A program made the position numbers and the translations under genes. From contig CANOFW010000005.1 of NCBI GenBank assembly GCA_947565425.1, positions 1-64,000 on the forward strand: a stretch of 64,000 bases of DNA. The letters run 5' to 3'. The notes beneath the pieces are model-generated. The model did not search any database. It had not been told where the DNA came from and worked only from the letters and a program-made list of their open reading frames with translations. This document shows, piece by piece, positions 39,531 through 53,604 of the stretch (the first letter of the stretch is position 1; each line of letters starts with the position of its first letter). The DNA is from an uncultured Lachnospiraceae bacterium (GTDB lineage Bacteria > Bacillota > Clostridia > Lachnospirales > Lachnospiraceae).

Positions 39531-39639
39531 GAAAATTGAGGAATGAAAGGTAAAATTGACGGGTAAGATAGAAGAAAAAGTGATGATATACTGCACGTCA
39601 AATAAATTTGCCGCTTAGTAAAAAAACAGGAGGGTGAAA

Positions 39640-40974
39640 ATGCTATTAAAGTATATTGTGAGTAATTTTATGTCAATAGGGCATCCCGTTGAATTTAGCA
39701 TGTTCCCTACATCAGAAAACGTGGAAGAGCGTTTGGTGAAAAGAATTGACACGAAAGCGGGAGAATGGAAAATTTTAAGGAGGGGAGGTTTTTTTGGACC
39801 CAATGCCTCTGGAAAGACGACGTTCATTAAGTCTCTGCATTTTGCCAAGAACTTTATTGTAAATGGACAGAAGAGTGGAAAGGGGACAGGAATTAATCAA
39901 TTCAGGGGAAATATTGAAGAATTAGAGACGAAGTCTCTGTTTCAGTTTATGTTTTATTTGCAGGGGGAGGTCTACGAATATGGTTTTTCGTTGGGTACAG
40001 AACAGGTCTATGAAGAATGGCTGATGGTTTTGACAGAAAAAGGGTTTCAGCCTTTATTTGCAAGGCAGACGTCGGAAGAAGGAAAGACGCAGATTGAAAT
40101 TGAATCTAGGTTTGCGCGAAATGGTTCAAAAGAACGGAACCTGATAGAAGTGTTAAAAGACAGTATCGGTGAGAATCAGAAAAATCAGCTATTTCTATAT
40201 AAGCTATACGACAATGGTGTGAAAAGGGTTCAATGCATCATTGAGTGGTTTCAGCATTTAAAGATTATTTTTCCTAAGTCGAAGGTTCAGGGATTGCCTT
40301 TGCGTATGGATAAAGACGACGATTTTCGTAGATTCATTTTAGATAGTTTAAAAAATATGGATACTGGTGTGGCAAATATTTTAGTTGTCAGTGACGTTAT
40401 GGATTTCCGTAATTTTATAGAAAAGCTCAATATTCCAAACGAGATTGTAAGCCAGGTTGAAGACATGAGGAATGGAATTTTAACGTTTGCCGGAAAATAT
40501 TTTATATTTGGAGAAGGAGAGAAACGGCAGACCTTATTGGTGCAGATCAAATTTGAGCATATGTTGAATGGGGAGATTGTACCCTTTAATGTGGAAGAGG
40601 AATCAGATGGAACAAGGCGTTTATTGGATTTGTTGCCGATTTTATTTTCTTTGAGCAAAAATAGACAGGATATCTATTTTGTGGATGAGATAGACCGCAG
40701 CCTGCACACGAAGTTGTCCCAGCATTTGTTGAGAGAATTTTTGAAAGGTTGTGAAGATACTGATAGCCAGATTGTATTTACCGCCCATGACGTCAACCTT
40801 ATCAATCTCGAGGAATTCGGGCAGGATGAAATTTGGTTTGTGGAAAAAGACGGGAATGGAGAATCGCATTTCAGGCCATTTTCTGATTTCGAGATACAAA
40901 AGGGACAGGATGCGTTAAGAGCATATTTGAATGGACGGTTCGGTGCGGTGCCGCTGATAAAGGGGGAGATATAG
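39640..40974 (+). CDS. AAA-family ATPase, RloA/AbiLi-like
   Basis: A 444-residue ATPase of the AAA_21 (ABC-like/OLD-like) type. Walker A is GPNASGKTTFIKSL (about 48-61), the signature-like stretch EEESDGTRRLLDLLPI, Walker B IYFVDEIDRSLH and the switch FTAHDVNLI. ATG 39640 has AGGAGGG 5 bases upstream; GTG 39634 sits on the RBS. The stop overlaps the rloB start by one base. Such ATPase plus RloB pairs are known as abortive phage infection (AbiL) and restriction-linked Rlo genes. No restriction-modification gene is nearby. Confidence 0.85.
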   Translation: MLLKYIVSNFMSIGHPVEFSMFPTSENVEERLVKRIDTKAGEWKILRRGGFFGPNASGKTTFIKSLHFAKNFIVNGQKSGKGTGINQFRGNIEELETKSLFQFMFYLQGEVYEYGFSLGTEQVYEEWLMVLTEKGFQPLFARQTSEEGKTQIEIESRFARNGSKERNLIEVLKDSIGENQKNQLFLYKLYDNGVKRVQCIIEWFQHLKIIFPKSKVQGLPLRMDKDDDFRRFILDSLKNMDTGVANILVVSDVMDFRNFIEKLNIPNEIVSQVEDMRNGILTFAGKYFIFGEGEKRQTLLVQIKFEHMLNGEIVPFNVEEESDGTRRLLDLLPILFSLSKNRQDIYFVDEIDRSLHTKLSQHLLREFLKGCEDTDSQIVFTAHDVNLINLEEFGQDEIWFVEKDGNGESHFRPFSDFEIQKGQDALRAYLNGRFGAVPLIKGEI

Positions 40975-41744
40975 TGGGAATTATTCTTACAAGCAGAATA
41001 CCGTATACCTTGGCAAATCCATTGCGCCCTAAGAGGCCGGCAATCAGTAAGATTATTTTTCTTTCCATGGAAGGAAGCGTCACGGAGGAAGAATATTTTA
41101 CATGGATTTCTCAATTATTTGATGAGGTTAAAACAAAGATTCAGTTTATATCGGTGGCGGAGGATGCAGTCCATACAAGAGAAAAGAATCGGACAAAAGA
41201 GCAGAGAAGTATGTTGGGAAAGAGTAAACCCAAACAATTGGTGGAGAAGATAGAGCAGTTTAAAATAGAGCAAAGTGAGAAATACCAGTTTGATAAATAT
41301 GAAGATGAATTCTGGATTGTTTCAGATATTGATGATAATTTGTCTGATTATGCGATTGAAAATCTGCATCAGGCATTAGAGCTTTGTGACGAAAAGGGAT
41401 ATGGTTATGCCATCAGTAATCCATTTTTTGAATTGTGGCTGTTATTACACCATGATGACATCACAGAAGAAGATAAATGTTATGCTGTGACAGAGGAACA
41501 TGCTTATGAAAAAACTAGCCACTTTCGGGAAAGGCTTAGAGATTGCGGGGCGCCGTTACAGGATTCCAAACATATCAGAGGAGAAGACTATACGAAAGAG
41601 AAAGTGATTCAGGCAGTCGAGAGGGCGAAAGCGTTACATACAGACAGAGAAGGGCGGTATCCCCAATATCTTGCAACGACTGTGTATCAATTGTTAGATA
41701 AAGTATTAGGGATGGCAGACAGGAATAAGATTTTATTAAGCTAA
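40974..41744 (+). CDS. RloB-family protein, putative TOPRIM nuclease of the AAA/RloB pair
   Basis: A 256-residue RloB-like protein. Motifs: FLSMEGSVTEEEYFTWI (Gly-x2-Thr-Glu block), WIVSDIDDN (Asp-x-Asp) and SNPFFELWLLLHHDD, the RloB signature and a TOPRIM-like acidic set. The N-terminal 20 residues are basic. It starts GTG 40974 inside the stop codon of the ATPase gene, with GGGGGAGA upstream, so the two are translationally coupled. It is likely the toxic effector of a phage-defence pair; function here is inference from the family. Confidence 0.83.
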   Translation: MGIILTSRIPYTLANPLRPKRPAISKIIFLSMEGSVTEEEYFTWISQLFDEVKTKIQFISVAEDAVHTREKNRTKEQRSMLGKSKPKQLVEKIEQFKIEQSEKYQFDKYEDEFWIVSDIDDNLSDYAIENLHQALELCDEKGYGYAISNPFFELWLLLHHDDITEEDKCYAVTEEHAYEKTSHFRERLRDCGAPLQDSKHIRGEDYTKEKVIQAVERAKALHTDREGRYPQYLATTVYQLLDKVLGMADRNKILLS

Positions 41745-42307: not shown

Positions 42308-42381
42308 AGTTTGCAGGCGTCCGTGAACGCTAGCAGTCTGAAATGCATATGATAAGGCAAATGTTAAAAAGGAATATGATG

Positions 42382-43287
42382 ATGTATTTTGACAGTAAAT
42401 GCAATTGTAGCTGTATGCCGGACATCAATAAAAATGACGAGGCGTTTCCGCCGCAGCACCAAAACCGTCAGCCCGGATTTGAATATGTCATGAATCCGCA
42501 GCCTGTTTCGGAGTGTGGAAAAATGTGCCGCAAATTGGAACATAAAGTGGCTTTGATTACAGGCGGCGATAGTGGAATAGGAAGGGCAGTCGCTTATGAT
42601 TTTGTCAAAGAAGGGGCTTGTGTTGCCATTGTCTATTATGATGAAGAGCTGGATGCGAAAGAAACTGCGGAGAGAATAAGGGAGCTAGGCGGTAAATGCC
42701 TGCTTATGCGCGGAGATTTAAAGGACAGAAATTTTGTCGAGTATTGCGTAGAGAGGACGATTGATCATTTTGGAAAATTGGATATCCTGGTAAATAACCA
42801 TGCGGTTCAGTTTGTCCAACGCAGTATCATGGATATCTCGCAGGAACAGTTAGAATGCACGTTCAGGACAAATGTGTTTTCATTTTTTTATTTGATTCAG
42901 AGTGCGCTGCCGTATATGGGAGAAGGCAGCAGCATTATTAACACAACATCTGTGACGGCTTATCAGGGGAATAAAGACTTGATAGATTACAGTGCAACTA
43001 AGGGCGCGATCGTAGCCTTGACAAGATCGCTTTCCCTGTCGCTTGCAGACAAAGGAATTAGGGTAAATGGAGTTGCGCCGGGGCCGATCTGGACGCCATT
43101 AATTCCAGCGTCTTATTCCGCTGAGGAGGTCGCTACATTTGGTAAGAAAACCTCCCATGTCCCAATGAATAGGGCGGGGCAGCCATGTGAAGTTTCTCCC
43201 TGTTATGTATTCCTTGCCTCGGATGATTCCAGTTATATGACAGGACAGGTGCTTCATCCCAATGGCGGCACAATCGTAGGCTCTTGA
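42382..43287 (+). CDS. Short-chain dehydrogenase/reductase
   Basis: A 301-residue SDR of the YghA/YhdF-like class (long N-terminal arm). A Cys-rich start (MYFDSKCNCSCMPDINKND) is followed by ALITGGDSGIGRAVAYDFVK (NAD(P) loop), LVNNHAVQF, and the catalytic TTSVTAYQGNKDLIDYSATK with Ser, Tyr and Lys. The C-terminal GGTIVGS is typical. Start choice: the RBS AAAAAGGA (42366-42373) suits ATG 42382 best; ATGs at 42343, 42376 and 42379 are possible. Substrate unknown. A strong terminator follows at 43301-43342. Confidence 0.88.
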   Translation: MYFDSKCNCSCMPDINKNDEAFPPQHQNRQPGFEYVMNPQPVSECGKMCRKLEHKVALITGGDSGIGRAVAYDFVKEGACVAIVYYDEELDAKETAERIRELGGKCLLMRGDLKDRNFVEYCVERTIDHFGKLDILVNNHAVQFVQRSIMDISQEQLECTFRTNVFSFFYLIQSALPYMGEGSSIINTTSVTAYQGNKDLIDYSATKGAIVALTRSLSLSLADKGIRVNGVAPGPIWTPLIPASYSAEEVATFGKKTSHVPMNRAGQPCEVSPCYVFLASDDSSYMTGQVLHPNGGTIVGS

Positions 43288-43300
43288 AGAATGATATAGA

Positions 43301-43342
43301 AGAAGCATCCTGCACAAGAACGATAGCGGATGCTTCTTTTTT
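43301..43342 (+). terminator. Terminator of the SDR gene
   Basis: AGAAGCATCC (43301-43310) pairs with GGATGCTTCT (43328-43337), followed by TTTTT. Confidence 0.88.
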
Positions 43343-43366
43343 GGGCGGCTATGTGAGAAAGCATCC

Positions 43367-44068
43367 GTAACTATTCAGCCCTAATTTTTTGCACAGCCCT
43401 ATTCTATAGAACTTTTATATTTATAGAATATAAAAATACTTATGGGAACCATTTGTTTCCAGCAGATTCCCCCTCCATACAGCCACCAGGAAACGTGACT
43501 GGATTTTTAGCATCCCTAGCTCCGGGGATGGACGGATTCTATTAATTCCCTCCCATTCAAACTCGGTTTTCCTTCTAGCCGGAAGGTATCGCGGGCCGAA
43601 ACTGTTTTTCTGGGGGAGGAAGCTCTTCGTGCGTTTTCCTTGCCAGCGGCATAAAAGCACCAATGGGTATGCACGATGACCTGTCTGAGCGGCTGCCGCA
43701 AGGCAGTTTTAAAATCAGACAGTCTTTCCTGCGGCAGCTGCGAGTTTCAGCGGCATACCCTAATCGAAGGTGGTTGTTGCCGCTGTTAGGAAAACCAGAA
43801 GGGTTGTCCGTGAAGAAAAACAGTTTCCGTTCCCACGATACTTTTACAGAGGAAAGGAAAACCTCAGACAGTGAATTGGAAGGGAATACATTCCGTTCAT
43901 CTCCCGGAGGCAAGGGATGCACAAAATCCCTCAAATGTTTCCCTTATGGCAGTATGGAGGGGGAATCTGTAAAAAGCATATATATTGCCCATAAGTATTT
44001 TTGCACAACAGCATAGAAAGTTCTATGGAATAGGGCTGTCATATAAAAAATTAAGGCTGAATAGTTAC
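43367..44068. mobile_element. 702-bp palindromic IS66-like non-autonomous element
   Basis: Begins GTAACTATTCAGCC and ends GGCTGAATAGTTAC, flanked on both sides by AAGCATCC (43359-43366 and 44069-44076), an 8-bp target duplication. IS66-family elements have GTAA ends and 8-bp duplications. The two halves are inverted copies over nearly the whole length, for example CAGATTCCCCCTCCATAC (43463) against its complement near 43951-43968, and AAACTGTTTTTCT near 43599 against AGAAAAACAGTTT near 43815. The centre is near 43710. It has no transposase and no convincing gene; the open frames at 43575-43934 and 43663-44016 mirror the palindrome. Confidence 0.85.
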
Positions 44069-44120
44069 AAGCATCCTTAAAAATTTCAACTTCAATATTC
44101 CCAAATGACGACAGATATGG

Positions 44121-44126
44121 TATAAT
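44121..44126 (+). promoter_or_regulatory. -10 box of ychF
   Basis: TATAAT (44121-44126) lies 98 bases before the ychF start. The expected -35 position reads TTCCCA (44098-44103), a weak match. Confidence 0.4.
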
Positions 44127-44224
44127 AATAAATCACACTGAATAATTCAATCATTGATACAGAAAATTATAGAGAAAGGCCGGAACCCTTATAAACTAAG
44201 GGGTTGTGGACAGGTAAGGGTAAA

Positions 44225-45322
44225 ATGAAATTAGGCATCGTGGGCTTGCCCAACGTAGGAAAAAGTACATTATTTAATTCATTGACGAAGGCGGGAGCAG
44301 AATCTGCAAATTACCCATTTTGTACGATTGATCCCAATGTGGGCGTCGTGACAGTACCGGATGAACGACTGAAAAAGCTGGGAGACTTGTACCATTCCAA
44401 GAAGGTAACGCCGGCTGTCATTGAATTTGTAGATATTGCAGGACTTGTCAAAGGCGCCAGCAAGGGAGAGGGACTGGGTAACCAGTTTTTATCAAATATT
44501 CGTGAGGTAGACGCGATTGTTCATGTGGTGCGTTGTTTTGAGGACAGTAATATTGTTCATGTAGACGGCAGTATCAATCCGGTGCGCGATATTGAGACGA
44601 TTAATCTGGAACTGATTTTTTCTGATATAGAAATCTTAGAGCGGAGGATTGCCAAGACCAGTAAGGGCGCAAGAATGGACAAGACTTTGGCGAAAGAATT
44701 GAATCTTTTGGAGCGTGTGAAAGCGCATCTGGAAGACGGTCGGCTGGCAAAGAGTTTTGAGACCGAAGACGAGGACGAGCAGGAGTGGTTCGCGGGATAT
44801 AACCTGCTGACTGCCAAGCCGGTGATCTATGCGGCGAATGTGTCGGAGGATGATTTGGCAGAGGATGGCGCCGGCAATGCATTTGTGCAAGAAGTTAGGA
44901 AGAATGCTGCTGAAGAGAATTGTGAAGTATTCGTTATCTGCGCCCAGATTGAGCAGGAGATTGCAGAGCTGGATGACGAGGAAAAGTCTATGTTTTTGGA
45001 GGAACTGGGCTTGGAGGAATCCGGTCTTGAGAAATTGATTAAGGCAAGTTACAGCCTGTTGGGGCTGATTAGTTACCTGACCTCGGGGGAGGATGAGACG
45101 CGCGCATGGACGATTAAAAAAGGCACCAAAGCGCCTCAGGCAGCAGGGAAAATTCATACAGATTTTGAGCGTGGTTTTATCCGCGCAGAGGTAGTCAATT
45201 ACCAGGATTTGCTGGATTGCGGTTCTCTGGCGGCGGCAAAAGAGAAAGGTTTAGTCGGACTGGAAGGAAAAGAATACGTGGTAAAGGATGGAGACGTGAT
45301 TTTGTTCCGGTTTAACGTGTAG
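44225..45322 (+). CDS. ychF: Redox/translation GTPase-like ATPase YchF (OBG family)
   Basis: A 365-residue YchF, a universal OBG-family ATPase that binds ribosomes. P-loop GLPNVGKSTLFNSLTKAGAES, then DPNVGVVTVPDERL, VDIAGLVKGASKGEGLGN and the ATP-specific ANVSED in place of the GTPase NKxD motif. The TGS C-terminal domain has TRAWTIKKGTKAPQAAGKIH and EGKEYVVKDGDVILFRFNV. ATG 44225 has AGGTAAGGG upstream. It is monocistronic, and its upstream region carries the palindromic element. Confidence 0.95.
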   Translation: MKLGIVGLPNVGKSTLFNSLTKAGAESANYPFCTIDPNVGVVTVPDERLKKLGDLYHSKKVTPAVIEFVDIAGLVKGASKGEGLGNQFLSNIREVDAIVHVVRCFEDSNIVHVDGSINPVRDIETINLELIFSDIEILERRIAKTSKGARMDKTLAKELNLLERVKAHLEDGRLAKSFETEDEDEQEWFAGYNLLTAKPVIYAANVSEDDLAEDGAGNAFVQEVRKNAAEENCEVFVICAQIEQEIAELDDEEKSMFLEELGLEESGLEKLIKASYSLLGLISYLTSGEDETRAWTIKKGTKAPQAAGKIHTDFERGFIRAEVVNYQDLLDCGSLAAAKEKGLVGLEGKEYVVKDGDVILFRFNV

Positions 45323-46885: not shown

Positions 46886-47076
46886 TATTAATATTAAAAA
46901 ATATAAAAAACTAAATATAATTAATCTTTTTTCGTGCATTTCCTATAGTTTTTGGGGATGAAAAAAAGGTATATATGTGTAACAATTATATCACATTCAT
47001 AAAAATCAGGAGAATTGCGGATATTTCCTTGTGGAATGTTTACAATATCTCCTACCAAAGAAAGGAGTTTTGCATA

Positions 47077-50000
47077 GTGAGGAAGGCACTGAAAAACAGA
47101 TGGAAACGTGTCTGTTCTGTAATTTTGGCGGCGGCGATGGTAGTTACCATGTTCCCGGCAGATGCGCAGGCAGCCACATCGTCATCAGCAAATGCTGATG
47201 GGACGTTCAATAATCCGGCGGTTTATGCGGATGTACCGGATATTGACATTATACGCGTGGAGGATGCGTATTATATGGTCAGCACGACCATGCATTTATC
47301 TCCGGGATGCCCGGTGATGAAATCAACGGATCTCGTAAACTGGGAAATCGTTAATTATGTATACGATATTCTGGGTGATTCGGATGAGATGAATTTGAGG
47401 AATGGCAAGAGCATGTATGGCAACGGCCAGTGGGCCAGCAGCCTGAAATATCATGGCGGCAAGTATTATGTAGCGTTTAACTCCAACACTACTGGAAAAG
47501 CTTACATATACACCACCGATGATATTGAGAATGGTTCCTGGACAAAGACGGAACTGAATGGTTTCTTCCATGATATGTCATTATTCTTTGATGACAATGG
47601 AAAGGGCTATATCCTCTATGGCGGCGGAGCAATCAAATGTGCAGAGTTGTCTGATGATTTTAAGACAGTGAAGAAAGATACGGAGAAGACACTGTTTGAC
47701 GTGACAAAAGACACAGGAGAGACGCATTTTACAAGCGGATTGTTATGTGAGGGAACACATATCATGAAGAAAGACGGTTATTATTATGTGTTCAATATCG
47801 GTTGGCCGACCGGTCATCCGCGTCTGGAAATGTGTCATAGAAGTAAGACGTTCCCCAGTACAGAATGGGAGAGCAAGATTATTTTGGAAGCTAATTTCCA
47901 GAACAATGGCGTCAATGCAGGCGTAGCGCAGGGAGCTGTTATCGATACTCCAGACGGCAAATGGTATGGTTTCATGTTCCAGGATCACGGTGCAATCGGA
48001 CGTACTCCGGTTCTTACGGATTGTGTTTGGAAAGATGGCTGGCCAATGCTTGGCAAGGACGGCGATGGCAAGACTGTGGAAGCAACTATGAAACTTCCCG
48101 CAGCAGGCAGCAGCACAAAATCTCTGGTGAAGTCTGACGAGTTCTACAATGATGCAGAGCACAGAGAATTTGCAGCACAGGCGGCAAGCGCAGAAGAACA
48201 GACAGTGATGGCGCCAGAAGAAGCGGCTGCACCGCAAGAACAGACAGCGTCTGTAACAGAACAGCCAGTAAACGCTCCGGCAGCAGAAGAAGAGCCGGAG
48301 ATGGAGACGGTAGAGCTGATTGAAAATAGAGACTTTGAAGACGGCACTGCAACTGGCTGGCAGGGATTTGAAGGTGGCGAGATAGAAGTTGTGTCTGAGG
48401 ACACAGAAGGCGGTGCGAACAAAGTACTCAAAGTAACAAGGGATAGGTCTTCCGCCAGCGCTATGTATGATCTGACCGGCAGGCTGAAAAAAGGAACTAC
48501 ATATACAATCAAGTTTAAAATGAAATACGATGGCGAGAATGTCATCGCAAAGAAGAAATTTGATGTTAGGTTCCAGAATGGTCCTAATTACCAGTATCGT
48601 CCGCTTGTTCAGACAATTGAACTGGAAAAAGGCGTATGGCAAGAATTTACGATGACTTATACGGCGGCAGATAACGGGGATTTTGCATTTGGCACGGATA
48701 AGAATTATTTCTACATCGAAGGCAATGGATACGCAGATGCGACTGGTGCAGCAAAAGATCCTGCCACACATCTGATGGATTATTATTTAGACGATGTATC
48801 TATTACGTTTGAACAGCCTAAGGGAGGCGATAATCCTGGCGGCGGAGATGACAATCCGGGAGGAAACACGCCAAACGCAGATGTTATTCAGTTGATTACA
48901 AACGGCGACGTTGAAACAGGAACGACAGACGGCTGGAGCATTACGCCAGGTGAAACAGGCGGTAAATTAGAAGCAGTTACGACAGATAAGGCAAACGGCG
49001 AGTACAGTCTCTTTGTTTCAGAGAGAACAGCGATGGGCGTAGGCGCTTGCCAGGATGTCAGCGGTAAGATGGAAGTGGGCAAGAAATACACGATTTCTGG
49101 TAAGCTGAAATACACCACAGGACCAGCTACCAAGCAGTTCTATGTGACGATTCAGCATGGTCCGAACTACCAGTATCGCCAGAACATGATGTCGATTAAC
49201 GCTAAGAAAGGCGAATGGGTAGAATTTAAGGGCGAATGGACAGCGGCTGACAAAGGCGATTTTGAATTTATGCCCGATCAGGTTCATGTATTCGTGGAGA
49301 CACCGTGGGCGGCAAGCATTGATCCGGAAAAAGATTTGATGAACTATTACCTGGATGATTTTTCTATGACGGTTCCCAGCGACAATATGGCAGGCGACGG
49401 TTCCTTTAATTCCGGTATCGGTCCCTGGGGCGCTTTTGAAGACAAAGGAACGGCAGAGGTTGTTGCAAATGGACGCGGCGGCGCTGATGATAAATGTTTG
49501 AAGATCAGCGGACGTACGAATAACTGGAACGGTGCAGGCCTTGTATTTGGCGATAAGATGACGCCGGGCAATACATATAAGATTAAAGCATGGGTGAAAT
49601 ACGATGCGGCAACGCCGGCACAGCAGAAGTTCTCCTTTACGATGAAAGGTTTAAAGGGAAGCGGGACAGACCCAAGCTATTCTGCTATGGCAGAAGGAAA
49701 CGCGAAGAGCGGCGAGTGGACGGAATTTACAGGCACCTGGACGATGCCAGAGGATGCAAATATCTCGGCAGATGCTTATCCTTGGACATTGTATGTAAAT
49801 ACCAATGAGCCTGGTCCGACATTTATGGACTTCTATCTGGATGATGTAGTTATTACGGAAGAAAAGCCTGACAAAGAGCCGGCAGAGAACGGAGAACATG
49901 ACTACAATGGTTCTAACTTAGACCTTGTATGGCAGTGGAATCATAATCCGAACAACAACAACTGGTCGCTGACTGAGCGTGACGGATGGTTGAGATTAAA

Positions 50001-53000
50001 GACAGGAAGCAAGGCAACCAGCCTGTTGAACGCAAGGAACACATTGACGCAGAGAACTTTTGGTCCGGCTTGTTCTGGTACGATCAAGATGGATATCAGC
50101 AAGATGGAAACAGGAGATGTGGCAGGCCTTGGCTCTCTTTCCTTCAAATATGGCTACATTGCAGTTAAGAAAGAGGCAAATGGCGCGAAACTTGTGATGG
50201 TAGACGCCTCCGCAAACAATACGGAGACGAAAGAAGATAACCCGATTGAAAAGGCAAGCGTAGACTGCACAGGAACTACCGTATATCTGAAGGAAGATTT
50301 CAATTATGCAGGAAATGCGAACGGCAGCGACAAAGATACCGTAAGCTTCTACTACAGCTTTGATGGAAGAACCTGGAAACAGTTAGGCGATAAGATGAAG
50401 ATGAGCTATGAGCTGGTACATTTCATGGGCAGCAAATTTGCGATCTTCAACTATGCGACCAAGAAAACAGGCGGATATGTAGATGTTGACTACTTCCGCG
50501 TATCCGATCAGCTTACCGGAGCAGAGACATTACCGGGAAGCGCGCTTGCAGCAACAATGAGCGCAACACAAGAGGTTAGCGGTGTTATTGGCACAGAATG
50601 CGAAGCAAAACTGAACCTTGACGCGTTGAAAGCAGAAGGACACAAGAATTTGCAGGCATCCATTGCTGTTCCAAGCATTATGGAAGTGAGGGATGTAATC
50701 TTCAATAACGCAGCGATAAAAGGTAAGGCAGAATATACGTATCGGAATGGCAGATTGACCATTAAGGTTACAGGTGATGATATCTCCTTTGAGGCAGCAG
50801 ACAAATTATTTGCAACTATCAAATTGAGACTGAAGAACTATGCGACAAAGGACGAGACAGTAGAGTTGCGTGCAGATTACATTCAGGTAGATGGTGTGGA
50901 CGCATATGATACTGACAACTGCAAGGCTCCTGTTAATTTGAAGTATTTAGATACGAAAGCGATTGCTAAGAAGTTAGGTTACGGCAATCCAATCTTCACA
51001 CAGGCGTTTGGCGCAGACCCCTATGCAATGGAATATGACGGCAGAGTTTATGTCTATATGACGGCAGACGCTTATCAGTATGATGCAAATGGCAACTTAT
51101 TAGATAATAACTTCAGCTATATCAATACTTTGCGAGTTGTTTCTTCCGCAGATTTGATGAACTGGACAGACCACGGCGAGATTGCAGTGGCAGGACCGAA
51201 CGGCGCGGCAAAATGGGCGAACAACTCCTGGGCTCCGGCGATTGCGCATAAGGAAATTGACGGCAAGGAGAAGTTCTTCCTCTACTTTGCAGACGGCGGC
51301 TCCGGTATCGGCGTATTGGAGGGTGACAGCCCCTTAGGTCCCTGGAGCGATCCGCTTGGACAGAAATTGTTCCCGACGACGTATCCGACAGAGGGCGTGC
51401 CGTGGTGCTTTGACCCGGCGGTATTAGTAGACAGCAAGGGCGACGGATACATTTATTTCGGCGGTGGAATACCTGGAAATCCACCTTCCACTGAACAGAT
51501 TAATAACCCAAATTCAGCAAGAGTTGCGAAACTGGCACCGGATATGGTTCATGTAGAGTCGAAAGACGGCAAACCTTACATAGAGAAGATCGACGCGCCT
51601 TGTATGTTTGAGGACAGTGGTATCTTTGAATATAATGGAAAGTATTACTACTCCTATTGCTCCAACTTCTCAAGTCCGCATCTCCCAGGCAATCCGGGAT
51701 TTGGTAACATCTGTTACATGGTAAGCGACGACCCGATGGGACCGTTCACCTATGCAGGAGAGATTTTCTCGAACCCGAGCGTATGGTTTGGCACCGGTGG
51801 AAATAACCATCATGCGACCTTCGTATTCGAGAACAAGAGCTACTTTATCTACCATGCGCAGACGGTATCGAAAGAAGAAGGAAAAGACAAGGGTTACCGT
51901 TCTACCCACATTGACAATATTGAGATGAACAAGGACGGAAGCATTAAGACTATCAAAGGAACCCGTGAGGGTATCAGCCAGCTTCATGTATTGAATCCTT
52001 ATGAGAGGATTGAGGGTGAGACGATTGCCTGGAATGCAGGCGTGAAAGTAGAGTCCTGTAAGGAACCGGGCAAGTTGTATGACAAGTATAACACAGCATT
52101 GACGGATTTACAGGACAAAGACTGGACGTCTGTTGCACAGTTAGAGTTTGGTGAATATGGCGCTACAGGCTTCAAGGTATATGCAGCTTCCGCTAAGGGT
52201 GGAAAGATTGAAGTGCGTATGGACAGCCCGGAGGGAACTTTGGCAGGTACCATAGATGTTCCGGCGACAGGCGGCGAGGATAAATACCAGTTAGTAGAAG
52301 GTAAGCTGGATACAGCAATTACCGGAACAAGGAATGTATTCCTGGTATTCCGCGGCTCTGCGACAGAGAATATCATGAATGTCGATTATTTTGAGTTTGT
52401 GGAAGCGTCTGCAAAAGAACAGTTAGCATTAGATATCAGCAAAGCAGAGCAGCTCTTAGCAGGACTTACTGGTGATGCGAAGACAAAATTGCAGGCAGCT
52501 ATCAATGCAGCGAAGGCTGTACTGAATAAGACAGGCGCAACACAGGCAGAGATCGAAAAAGCGCTTGCAGACTTGAAGGCAGCCGTAGACGAAACGCAGA
52601 AACCTGCCGGAGATAAACTGAGCGCTAAGATTGCAGAGGCAGAGAAACTTCTTGCGAAGCTCTCAGGCACAGCGAAGACGAAATTGCAGGCAGCGATTGA
52701 CGAGGCTAAGAAAGTATTGAATGATCCGAAGGCAGATGAGCAGGCATTCAATGAAGCCTTGACGAAGCTTAGCCAGTCCATTAAGGAAGCTGAGGGAGGC
52801 ACAAGCGTTACACCGCAGCCGCCGAAGGTAAATGAGAGCTTTACTGCATCGAATGGACTTAAATATAAGATTACTGCTTACAGCAGTAAGGCTAAGAATG
52901 TGACGGTGACAGGAATCAGCAAGAAAGTCACAAGTATTACAGTTCCGAGTACTGTGGTCTATAAGAATGTGACCTTCAAGGTAACGGCGATTGGCAGTAG

Positions 53001-53604
53001 CGCCTTTACAAAGCAGAGTTCCTTAAAGAATGCAACGATTGGCAAATATGTCACCAGCATTGGTACGAAAGCATTCTACAACGACAAGAAGCTGGCGAAA
53101 GTGACCTTCAAGGGAACGGCAGTGAAGACGATTGGCAAAGACGCCTTTAAGGGTATCAAGAAAGGCGCATCCTTCGCTATGAAGAAGACTTTCACCTACA
53201 AGAGTATCAAGTATAAGATTACGAAGAGCACTACATCTGTAAAACAGGTGACAGTGACTGGAACAACCAAGAAGAACATTACAAGCCTGAAGATACCGGC
53301 AACGGTAAAATATAATGGTTTAAGCTTCAAGGTGACAACAATTGGCAAGAATGCATTTAAGAACAAGAAGAGATTAAAGAGCGTAACAATTGGCAAGTAT
53401 GTCAAGAGTATTGGTTCTGGTGCATTCCTGGGCGACAAGAAGCTCGCAAAAGTGAAGTTCAGCGGAACAGCGATCAAGAAAATTAACAAGAATGCGTTCA
53501 AGGGCGTCAAGAAGAATGCAACATTTAGCATTAAGAAGTCTAAGAGAACATACTTGAAAAAACTTTTAAAGAAGGCGAGCACGAAAAATTTTAAAGTAAG
53601 ATAA
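47077..53604 (+). CDS. Giant secreted enzyme with two GH43 domains
   Basis: 2175 residues, secreted (signal about 1-34, ending DAQAA). GH43 domain 1 (about 40-345) resembles beta-xylosidase/arabinofuranosidase: VPDIDIIRVEDAYYMVSTTM, LLCEGTHIMKKDGYYYVFN. An Ala/Glu/Gln linker leads to three CBM4_9-like modules (about 412-598, 603-771, 771-934; ENRDFEDGTATGW, TNGDVETGTTDGW, GDGSFNSGIGPW). Then a GH43 C2-like beta-sandwich (942-1145), a cohesin-like domain (1151-1290), GH43 domain 2 (1302-1642; TQAFGADPYAMEYDGRVYVY), a CBM6-like module (1643-1778), two FIVAR repeats (1782-1908) and BspA-like LRRs (1922-2175). GTG 47077 has AAAGGAG upstream. No LPXTG. Arabinoxylan breakdown is inferred. Confidence 0.88.
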   Translation: MRKALKNRWKRVCSVILAAAMVVTMFPADAQAATSSSANADGTFNNPAVYADVPDIDIIRVEDAYYMVSTTMHLSPGCPVMKSTDLVNWEIVNYVYDILGDSDEMNLRNGKSMYGNGQWASSLKYHGGKYYVAFNSNTTGKAYIYTTDDIENGSWTKTELNGFFHDMSLFFDDNGKGYILYGGGAIKCAELSDDFKTVKKDTEKTLFDVTKDTGETHFTSGLLCEGTHIMKKDGYYYVFNIGWPTGHPRLEMCHRSKTFPSTEWESKIILEANFQNNGVNAGVAQGAVIDTPDGKWYGFMFQDHGAIGRTPVLTDCVWKDGWPMLGKDGDGKTVEATMKLPAAGSSTKSLVKSDEFYNDAEHREFAAQAASAEEQTVMAPEEAAAPQEQTASVTEQPVNAPAAEEEPEMETVELIENRDFEDGTATGWQGFEGGEIEVVSEDTEGGANKVLKVTRDRSSASAMYDLTGRLKKGTTYTIKFKMKYDGENVIAKKKFDVRFQNGPNYQYRPLVQTIELEKGVWQEFTMTYTAADNGDFAFGTDKNYFYIEGNGYADATGAAKDPATHLMDYYLDDVSITFEQPKGGDNPGGGDDNPGGNTPNADVIQLITNGDVETGTTDGWSITPGETGGKLEAVTTDKANGEYSLFVSERTAMGVGACQDVSGKMEVGKKYTISGKLKYTTGPATKQFYVTIQHGPNYQYRQNMMSINAKKGEWVEFKGEWTAADKGDFEFMPDQVHVFVETPWAASIDPEKDLMNYYLDDFSMTVPSDNMAGDGSFNSGIGPWGAFEDKGTAEVVANGRGGADDKCLKISGRTNNWNGAGLVFGDKMTPGNTYKIKAWVKYDAATPAQQKFSFTMKGLKGSGTDPSYSAMAEGNAKSGEWTEFTGTWTMPEDANISADAYPWTLYVNTNEPGPTFMDFYLDDVVITEEKPDKEPAENGEHDYNGSNLDLVWQWNHNPNNNNWSLTERDGWLRLKTGSKATSLLNARNTLTQRTFGPACSGTIKMDISKMETGDVAGLGSLSFKYGYIAVKKEANGAKLVMVDASANNTETKEDNPIEKASVDCTGTTVYLKEDFNYAGNANGSDKDTVSFYYSFDGRTWKQLGDKMKMSYELVHFMGSKFAIFNYATKKTGGYVDVDYFRVSDQLTGAETLPGSALAATMSATQEVSGVIGTECEAKLNLDALKAEGHKNLQASIAVPSIMEVRDVIFNNAAIKGKAEYTYRNGRLTIKVTGDDISFEAADKLFATIKLRLKNYATKDETVELRADYIQVDGVDAYDTDNCKAPVNLKYLDTKAIAKKLGYGNPIFTQAFGADPYAMEYDGRVYVYMTADAYQYDANGNLLDNNFSYINTLRVVSSADLMNWTDHGEIAVAGPNGAAKWANNSWAPAIAHKEIDGKEKFFLYFADGGSGIGVLEGDSPLGPWSDPLGQKLFPTTYPTEGVPWCFDPAVLVDSKGDGYIYFGGGIPGNPPSTEQINNPNSARVAKLAPDMVHVESKDGKPYIEKIDAPCMFEDSGIFEYNGKYYYSYCSNFSSPHLPGNPGFGNICYMVSDDPMGPFTYAGEIFSNPSVWFGTGGNNHHATFVFENKSYFIYHAQTVSKEEGKDKGYRSTHIDNIEMNKDGSIKTIKGTREGISQLHVLNPYERIEGETIAWNAGVKVESCKEPGKLYDKYNTALTDLQDKDWTSVAQLEFGEYGATGFKVYAASAKGGKIEVRMDSPEGTLAGTIDVPATGGEDKYQLVEGKLDTAITGTRNVFLVFRGSATENIMNVDYFEFVEASAKEQLALDISKAEQLLAGLTGDAKTKLQAAINAAKAVLNKTGATQAEIEKALADLKAAVDETQKPAGDKLSAKIAEAEKLLAKLSGTAKTKLQAAIDEAKKVLNDPKADEQAFNEALTKLSQSIKEAEGGTSVTPQPPKVNESFTASNGLKYKITAYSSKAKNVTVTGISKKVTSITVPSTVVYKNVTFKVTAIGSSAFTKQSSLKNATIGKYVTSIGTKAFYNDKKLAKVTFKGTAVKTIGKDAFKGIKKGASFAMKKTFTYKSIKYKITKSTTSVKQVTVTGTTKKNITSLKIPATVKYNGLSFKVTTIGKNAFKNKKRLKSVTIGKYVKSIGSGAFLGDKKLAKVKFSGTAIKKINKNAFKGVKKNATFSIKKSKRTYLKKLLKKASTKNFKVR

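Follow-up and report, generated by a model that had tools for sequence, protein, structure and literature searches.

Between an SDR gene and the housekeeping gene ychF, the window analysed here (a stretch of 64,000 nt from an uncultured gut bacterium of the Lachnospiraceae) carries a 702-bp palindromic element whose identity as a gene-less MITE, a non-autonomous transposon, is well supported. The reading we favour, with a probability of slightly under 0.6, is that it belongs to a MITE lineage with ISBst12-type ends that is under selection for hairpin formation in single-stranded nucleic acid. As judged from the sequences compared, its interior is conserved between species, a point that the preliminary description of this DNA missed.

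Inverted ends and a direct 8-bp duplication were both found where the preliminary description had placed a 702-bp element. The element lies 79 bp after the SDR gene and 156 bp before the ychF ATG, and so separates the two genes as had been proposed. Its features are given below, the + strand being the orientation of the best match to the tip model R1; row counts refer to alignment A1 (14 rows, three of them incomplete) and sequence counts to a tip set of 40 rows.

42343–43287, +: short-chain dehydrogenase (SDR) gene, upstream, ending 79 bp before the element
43302–43342, +: terminator-like hairpin after the SDR gene, read from the sequence
43359–43366, no strand: left copy of the 8-bp target duplication AAGCATCC, read from the sequence
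43367–44068, +: palindromic MITE, 702 bp
43367–43390, +: left terminal inverted repeat (GTAACTATTCAGCC...), 96% complementary to the right end
43391–43632, +: left arm of the palindrome, from fold and alignment
43559–43566, +: AAACTCGG, left-arm complement-type copy of the loop motif (AAACTCG in 13 of 14 A1 rows)
43633–43795, +: tip domain, the best conserved part and the region of model R1, from model matches and pairing counts
43681–43689, +: CTGTCTGAG, 5' side of the internal loop (UGUYUGA invariant, 40/40 sequences)
43742–43750, +: GAGTTTCAG, 3' side of the loop at 43681–43689 (GAGUU invariant, 40/40 sequences)
43761–43768, +: TAATCGAA, facing AAT at 43662–43664 as the 3' side of another conserved internal loop
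43796–44044, +: right arm of the palindrome, from fold and alignment
43862–43873, +: CCTCAGACAGTG, right-arm partner of AAACTCGG (CTC[AT][GA]ACA[GA]T in 14 of 14 A1 rows)
44045–44068, −: right terminal inverted repeat, complementary to the left end
44069–44076, no strand: right copy of the 8-bp target duplication AAGCATCC, read from the sequence
44098–44126, +: promoter-like site (extended −10) between element and ychF, not above shuffled background
44225–45322, +: ychF, downstream gene, with its ATG at 44225 (the ORF list gives TTG at 44204)

The terminal inverted repeats are 24 nt long, with GTAACTATTCAGCC identical at both ends. The longest internal ORFs, of 117 and 119 aa, matched no Pfam family at E values up to 0.1, in keeping with the earlier statement that no transposase lies inside, and no conserved protein was seen by eye in the arms, where alignment indels do not keep frame. 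Terminal inverted repeats, a target-site duplication, absence of a transposase gene and multiple copies, the hallmarks of a MITE, were thus all found, and the multiple copies suggest that the element is mobile. The left arm of the terminator-like hairpin at 43302–43342, which is unlisted by a hairpin scan that allows loops of 3–8 only, also holds the octamer AAGCATCC, about 50 bp from the duplication.

Folding into a single hairpin, as the preliminary description proposed, was borne out on either strand. Minimum fold energies were −356.1 and −347.5 kcal/mol for the two strands, whereas the shuffles averaged −190 and −189 (z = −22.3 and −21.0; 0 of 20 shuffles as low for each strand), and 257 of the 266 pairs in the minimum-energy fold cross the centre. 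The wording 'near-perfect palindrome' suits the ends and fails for the rest, where mismatches, bulges and internal loops are many. When the whole element is compared with its reverse complement, identity is 71% in an alignment of 748 columns, so the palindrome is imperfect except at its almost perfect ends.

The proposal that the ends are of IS66 type stood at the level of the family, where they resemble the ISBst12-type, single-ORF branch, and did not stand for classic IS66 ends (GTAAGCG). Within the genus, an IS66-family ORF occurs in elements that have GTAACNGTTCAG ends together with 8-bp duplications. The sister species G041 has three such elements of 1813 bp (L114, L117 and L119) with GTAACTGTTCAG ends (end sequence GTAACTGTTCAGAA) and perfect 8-bp repeats, and the 487-aa ORF of L114, the sole one of the three scanned, matched PF03050 at 162.5 bits and NCBIfam transpos_IS66 at 261 bits. 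Broken relatives are L091 in G018 (ends GTAACAGTTCAGAC, 9-bp repeat) and L113 in G042 (one end, GTAACAGTTCAGCC). Agreement of the focal ends with those of all five lies within the first 12–14 bases, with one to three differences, and does not extend over whole ends. In the accessible part of the source on ISDge4, a member of the ISBst12 group, that element ends in GTAACTGCTCAGCA/GTGACTACTCAGCA and is flanked by an 8-bp repeat (PMC12898284). The focal element resembles this group in its end sequence (compared with GTAACTGCTCAGCA of ISDge4) and 8-bp target duplication, and the single-ORF elements of the genus with a PF03050 domain have ends like its own; it differs in having no transposase ORF and in being palindromic along nearly its whole length. 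The duplication length noted earlier is consistent with an ISBst12-type IS66 derivative, the partner elements also having 8 bp except L091, which reads 9 bp.

An origin from classic IS66 (tnpA, tnpB, tnpC) was rejected, as the classic ends in the genus are GTAAGCG against focal ends GTAACTATTCAG. GTAAGCG end pairs were found at 6 of 29 IS66 loci scanned, 5 of them in the genus and there spaced about 2.5 kb; many loci gave no pair, the own C38 copy included. No IS66 with transposase sharing the focal ends was found in the own genome (G000, 93% complete): there were just two PF03050 hits, on C38 and C45, with no GTAACNNTTCAG end beside either. These two loci (L030 8606–9700 on C45 and L029 3982–4337 on C38) carry an IS66-like ORF of 313 aa and a right end CCCACCCATGAAAAGTAAC, and lie in inverted flanks CTGACGCTTAAA/TTTAAGCGTCAG. 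Ends similar to CCCACCCATGAAAAGTAAC bound some copies in G352, two of which also lie in inverted flanks. By their flanks, elements of the C45/C38 type look as if they preferred the loops of palindromes or terminators.

A DNA search of the own genome, in which 40 of 49 candidates were scored, gave 85 matching pieces at about 27 places by our count, besides one 23-bp piece. The central tip is held by 3 of these places, some places being cut by contig ends. Many copies keep both ends and have lost the palindrome centre: C12 consists of element positions 3–190 and 524–702, C1c of 10–190 and 527–702, and C23 of 1–163 and 516–702, while the shortest, at C7, measures 64 bp. Where adjacent pieces meet in C11, C16, C23, C1b, C1c, C12 and C21, they share 3–21 bp, which may reflect deletion between short repeats. 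At arm-diagnostic sites the centre is flipped relative to the ends, clearly in C1a and C21 and in parts of C9a, C4b and C34; recombination or template exchange between the arms therefore takes place. For C4b and C34 a reading as homogenised arms was discarded, as their deletions lie off centre, so that one 'half' crosses the tip. Scanning 41 loci, with output limited to end pairs with a flanking repeat, gave 16 flanking repeats (10 exact, 6 with one mismatch) over three GTAAC-ended families. In a crude ORF scan of the joined flanks of 19 copies, 14 had no ORF of at least 90 aa and five had one (C7, C1b, C46, C11 and C23). The same genome holds two further GTAAC-ended repeat families, one of 163–180 bp (L030 970–1147, L033 857–1036, L041 871–1033, L045 886–1048 and L049 851–1013) and one of 255–258 bp (L040 946–1203 and L050 935–1189), both with exact or one-mismatch 8-bp repeats.

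Long relatives of 694–702 bp, and one of 777 bp in which the alignment shows an internal insertion, occur in five other genomes of the genus (G011, G023, G016, G004 and G009), with 68–76% identity over the matched parts. A covariance model of the 165-nt tip matched 10 of 29 genus genomes, the own included, and in a family-wide sample the tip model matched 3 of 397 genomes, namely the own, G352 strongly and G130 weakly. G041 has the tip 14 times, with outer arms mostly decayed or differing. In G352, the one genome covered from a second genus, the tip is present at 18 places (of 35 matches, 17 merely repeat a place on its opposite strand); none of the 7 copies examined has a GTAAC end, and the ends are TTACTTTTCATGGGG-like where found. 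The loci were fetched by similarity to a family member, which favours intact copies. The exact tip pattern was found in 14 stretches, all titled Lachnospiraceae and 7 of them Lachnospiraceae bacterium 3-1. The viral_contigs collection, the one viral collection tried, gave 0 matches, and a viral source was set aside on this basis.

The four G130 tip matches score 36 bits or less and have loop letters in common with the family and different ends. They belong to palindromes at L202, L205, L208 and L210 (480 bp at L202, 242 bp at L208), whose ends are quite different and whose tips carry AACTGTCTGA / TCTGAGTTT; these palindromes may be distant relatives, a case of convergence, or unrelated. The literature searched, in which subscription journals are thinly covered, gave no description of this hairpin MITE family.

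Pairing within the hairpin is kept through changes on both sides. The consensus structures were derived from the very alignments tested, which biases the following counts in their favour. In A1, 170 of the 172 predicted pairs were used (columns 44–51 and 45–50 were left out); both-sided changes were found at 71 of these, and 96.4% of cells were paired, compared with 38–52% for slid pairing and 86% for shuffles. Further pair types in A1 showed no excess (123 versus 125.9 shuffled, with 418 of 500 shuffles as high). Of the G352 copies 10 of 18 entered the 40-row tip set, and of the G023 copies 4 of 7; the set excludes the weak G130 copies and also G044, since G017 has an identical element. Here both-sided changes were found at 15 of 24 pairs, with 98.5% of cells paired against 34–45% in slid controls. 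A mixed alignment that included truncated G352 rows lost the outer helices.

Close copies differed at A1 consensus pairs on one side only (22 differences in G023, 27 in G000, and 0 both-sided), whereas pairwise differences across the genus were both-sided 1695 times and one-sided 798 times. With structures folded per species, both-sided against one-sided differences numbered 10 and 60 in G023, 35 and 86 in G004, and 51 and 112 in G352, and G000 had 2 or 1 both-sided differences. The time pattern, one-sided in close copies and both-sided across the genus, is thus not clean. Both-sided changes were clustered in G004 and G016 (p 0.004–0.013), probably reflecting one shared event.

Between covarying pairs of the tip lies the internal loop UGUYUGA opposite GAGUU, invariant in all 40 tips; a stricter pattern, with two pyrimidines before GAGUU, held in 37. 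The letters AUCGAA of the second internal loop are kept at 40, 39, 38, 34, 34 and 35 of the 40 sequences, and the outer arms repeat the complement of the loop motif. A kink-turn is a bent, protein-binding helix in which tandem sheared G-A pairs follow a bulge. From the letters UGUYUGA/GAGUU alone, the tip loop may be kink-turn-like, with a bulge longer than usual. Covarying helices, an invariant asymmetric loop and GA on both sides liken the element to large structured bacterial RNAs and kink-turn motifs; it differs from such RNAs in its mismatches, which are strand-neutral overall, in matching no Rfam family in the focal region, and in that its transcript is hypothetical.

If the RNA of one strand were selected, G-U mismatches should exceed A-C. 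In G-U-free folds of both strands we counted 28 G-U and 29 A-C cells in 133 pairs, species-majority counts were 29 versus 27 and 10 versus 12 pairs, and 21 of the 133 pairs showed transversion-type changes. Because G-U and A-C mismatches balance, RNA-level selection is not established for the whole element, and overall the conserved feature is not the transcript of one fixed strand. RNAalifold energies (−182 for +, −155 for −) are biased by G-U and were replaced by those of the G-U-free folds (−138.5 versus −134.9). In the tip, G-U exceeded A-C in some counts (25 versus 6 cells; 8 versus 1 at species level, p = 0.039 uncorrected; 19 versus 7 in an earlier set). With G-U allowed and the predictions of both strands pooled, the species-level counts were 25 versus 21 (p = 0.66) and 12 versus 8.

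A known RNA family was rejected for the focal region, where Rfam 15 gave no match at gathering score and only a chance hit to Atu_C9 (12 bits, E 0.83). Across four related loci, all matches up to E 0.1 stayed below their gathering scores; these were a T-box next to a G352 copy and, over a G130 palindrome, a weak MIR6224. The T-box leader match, at L201 2024–2268 just beyond the G352 copy, scores 78 bits against a gathering score of 93. A promoter scan found no promoter-like site inside the element.

At the host locus, the same junction was found in none of the genus genomes compared. Clear matches to this SDR gene were limited to G011, G003 and G004, plus a 31-bp match in G001; no ychF lay within the 1.5 kb fetched at the SDR gene in G011 and G003, and the G004 contig stops within the gene. 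ychF is present in 28 of 29 genomes, the own included, and the alignment upstream of it, in two genomes, starts at window position 44163 (G016) and 44225 (G011). The promoter scan of the locus gave 3 sites, against a shuffled mean of 2.2. The effect of the element on the host locus is probably small, and the earlier suggestion of an effect on ychF is possible but unsupported. Elsewhere in the window, an AAA ATPase and RloB-like gene pair at 39634–41744 resembles AbiL (PADLOC AbiLi 243 bits, AbiLii 65 bits; Pfam RloB 114.5 bits), and a 2209-aa ORF at 46975–53604 with GH43, CBM_4_9, CBM_6, FIVAR and BspA-type repeats is likely, from its domains, to encode a large polysaccharide-degrading enzyme.

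The main rival to selection is a mutational process alone, in which template switching or arm recombination copies one arm onto the other and the hairpin has no function; we consider this rather unlikely. In the accessible parts of the sources, template switching homogenises repeat arms and inverts spacers (PMC8604942) and keeps RNA stems paired (PMC8794818). It would be in line with the balanced G-U and A-C mismatches, the transversion-type pair changes, the flipped centres of own-genome copies, the clustering of both-sided changes in G004 and G016, and some both-sided differences already seen among the close G023 copies when these are folded by species; the time pattern also fits slow template-switch correction. 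However, arm copying should erase the mismatched loop that stays unchanged in every tip between covarying pairs, unless its tracts are very short, and the consensus pairs of A1 show no both-sided change in close G000 or G023 copies. Selection is favoured because loops persist unpaired and unchanged beside covarying pairs, and a DNA-level process because the strand mismatches are balanced. A special case of selection for the hairpin is that the tip is a structured RNA cargo with a kink-turn-like loop, made from the + strand. The covarying helices and invariant loop shared by two genera, the same core with different ends in G352, and the G-U excess of the tip in some counts speak for this, but that excess nearly vanishes at species level when strands are pooled, the likeness to kink-turns is tentative and the bulge overlong, neither an Rfam family nor an internal promoter-like site was found, and few own-genome places hold the tip; we regard it as quite unlikely.

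Two further accounts fare worse. Recruitment of the element at this locus to regulate ychF, as terminator, insulator or stabiliser, draws on the position of a long hairpin between two co-directional genes; yet the element was not seen upstream of ychF in the two relatives examined (G016 and G011), this is one of about 27 family places, and a promoter-like site follows the element, which makes the account very improbable. The ends and duplication would equally fit an ordinary IS66 deletion derivative, palindromic through a chance inverted duplication and conserved nowhere inside, and MITEs are commonly IS derivatives according to the part of PMC10969869 available. The covarying tip in 10 of 29 genus genomes already contradicts this account, and the interior has no DNA match to the broken ISBst12-type element L091; it is the least credible of all.

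Under selection for the hairpin, an ISBst12-type transposase acting in trans would have inserted the MITE, whose ends place it with the single-ORF, ISBst12-type elements of the IS66 family, between the SDR gene and ychF, leaving the 8-bp duplication; we infer transposition in trans from the anatomy. The interior, where no sign of a transposase gene is seen, is a conserved hairpin over almost the full length of the element, and its tip domain carries two conserved asymmetric internal loops. A source lineage would be held to the fold across the divergence of the genus while inserted copies drift, as the pattern of differences suggests, with exceptions, and the most likely reason is selection for the hairpin in a read-through transcript or in exposed single-stranded DNA. 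Many of the other own-genome copies are shorter derivatives that lost the palindrome centre. Against this reading, the core in G352 has other ends. It is conceivable, though we lean against it, that a kink-turn-like hairpin module is the cargo of gene-less transposons with at least two end types in two Lachnospiraceae genera, and represents a new mobile structured nucleic-acid family (RNA or DNA hairpin) selected in its own right.

Eukaryotic foldback elements also have very long inverted repeats filling most of the element; the focal element differs in being bacterial and in having IS66-type ends and a conserved tip. With the prokaryotic MITEs QMITE1 and Chunjie, as far as the available part of the source describes them, it shares terminal inverted repeats, direct repeats, lack of a transposase and many size variants per genome, but it measures 702 bp against a usual 50–500 bp, and its interior is conserved across species and genera with compensatory changes (PMC10969869).

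MITEs are commonly seen as decayed transposons whose interior holds no information, whereas here the interior folds over most of its length and keeps its pairing through many two-sided changes. This leaves two views: selection acts on transposon hairpins for some function that is theirs, or very long palindromes stay paired over long periods through template switching. A copy-rich family, with intact, shortened and flipped members in one genome, makes the choice between selection and template switching testable.
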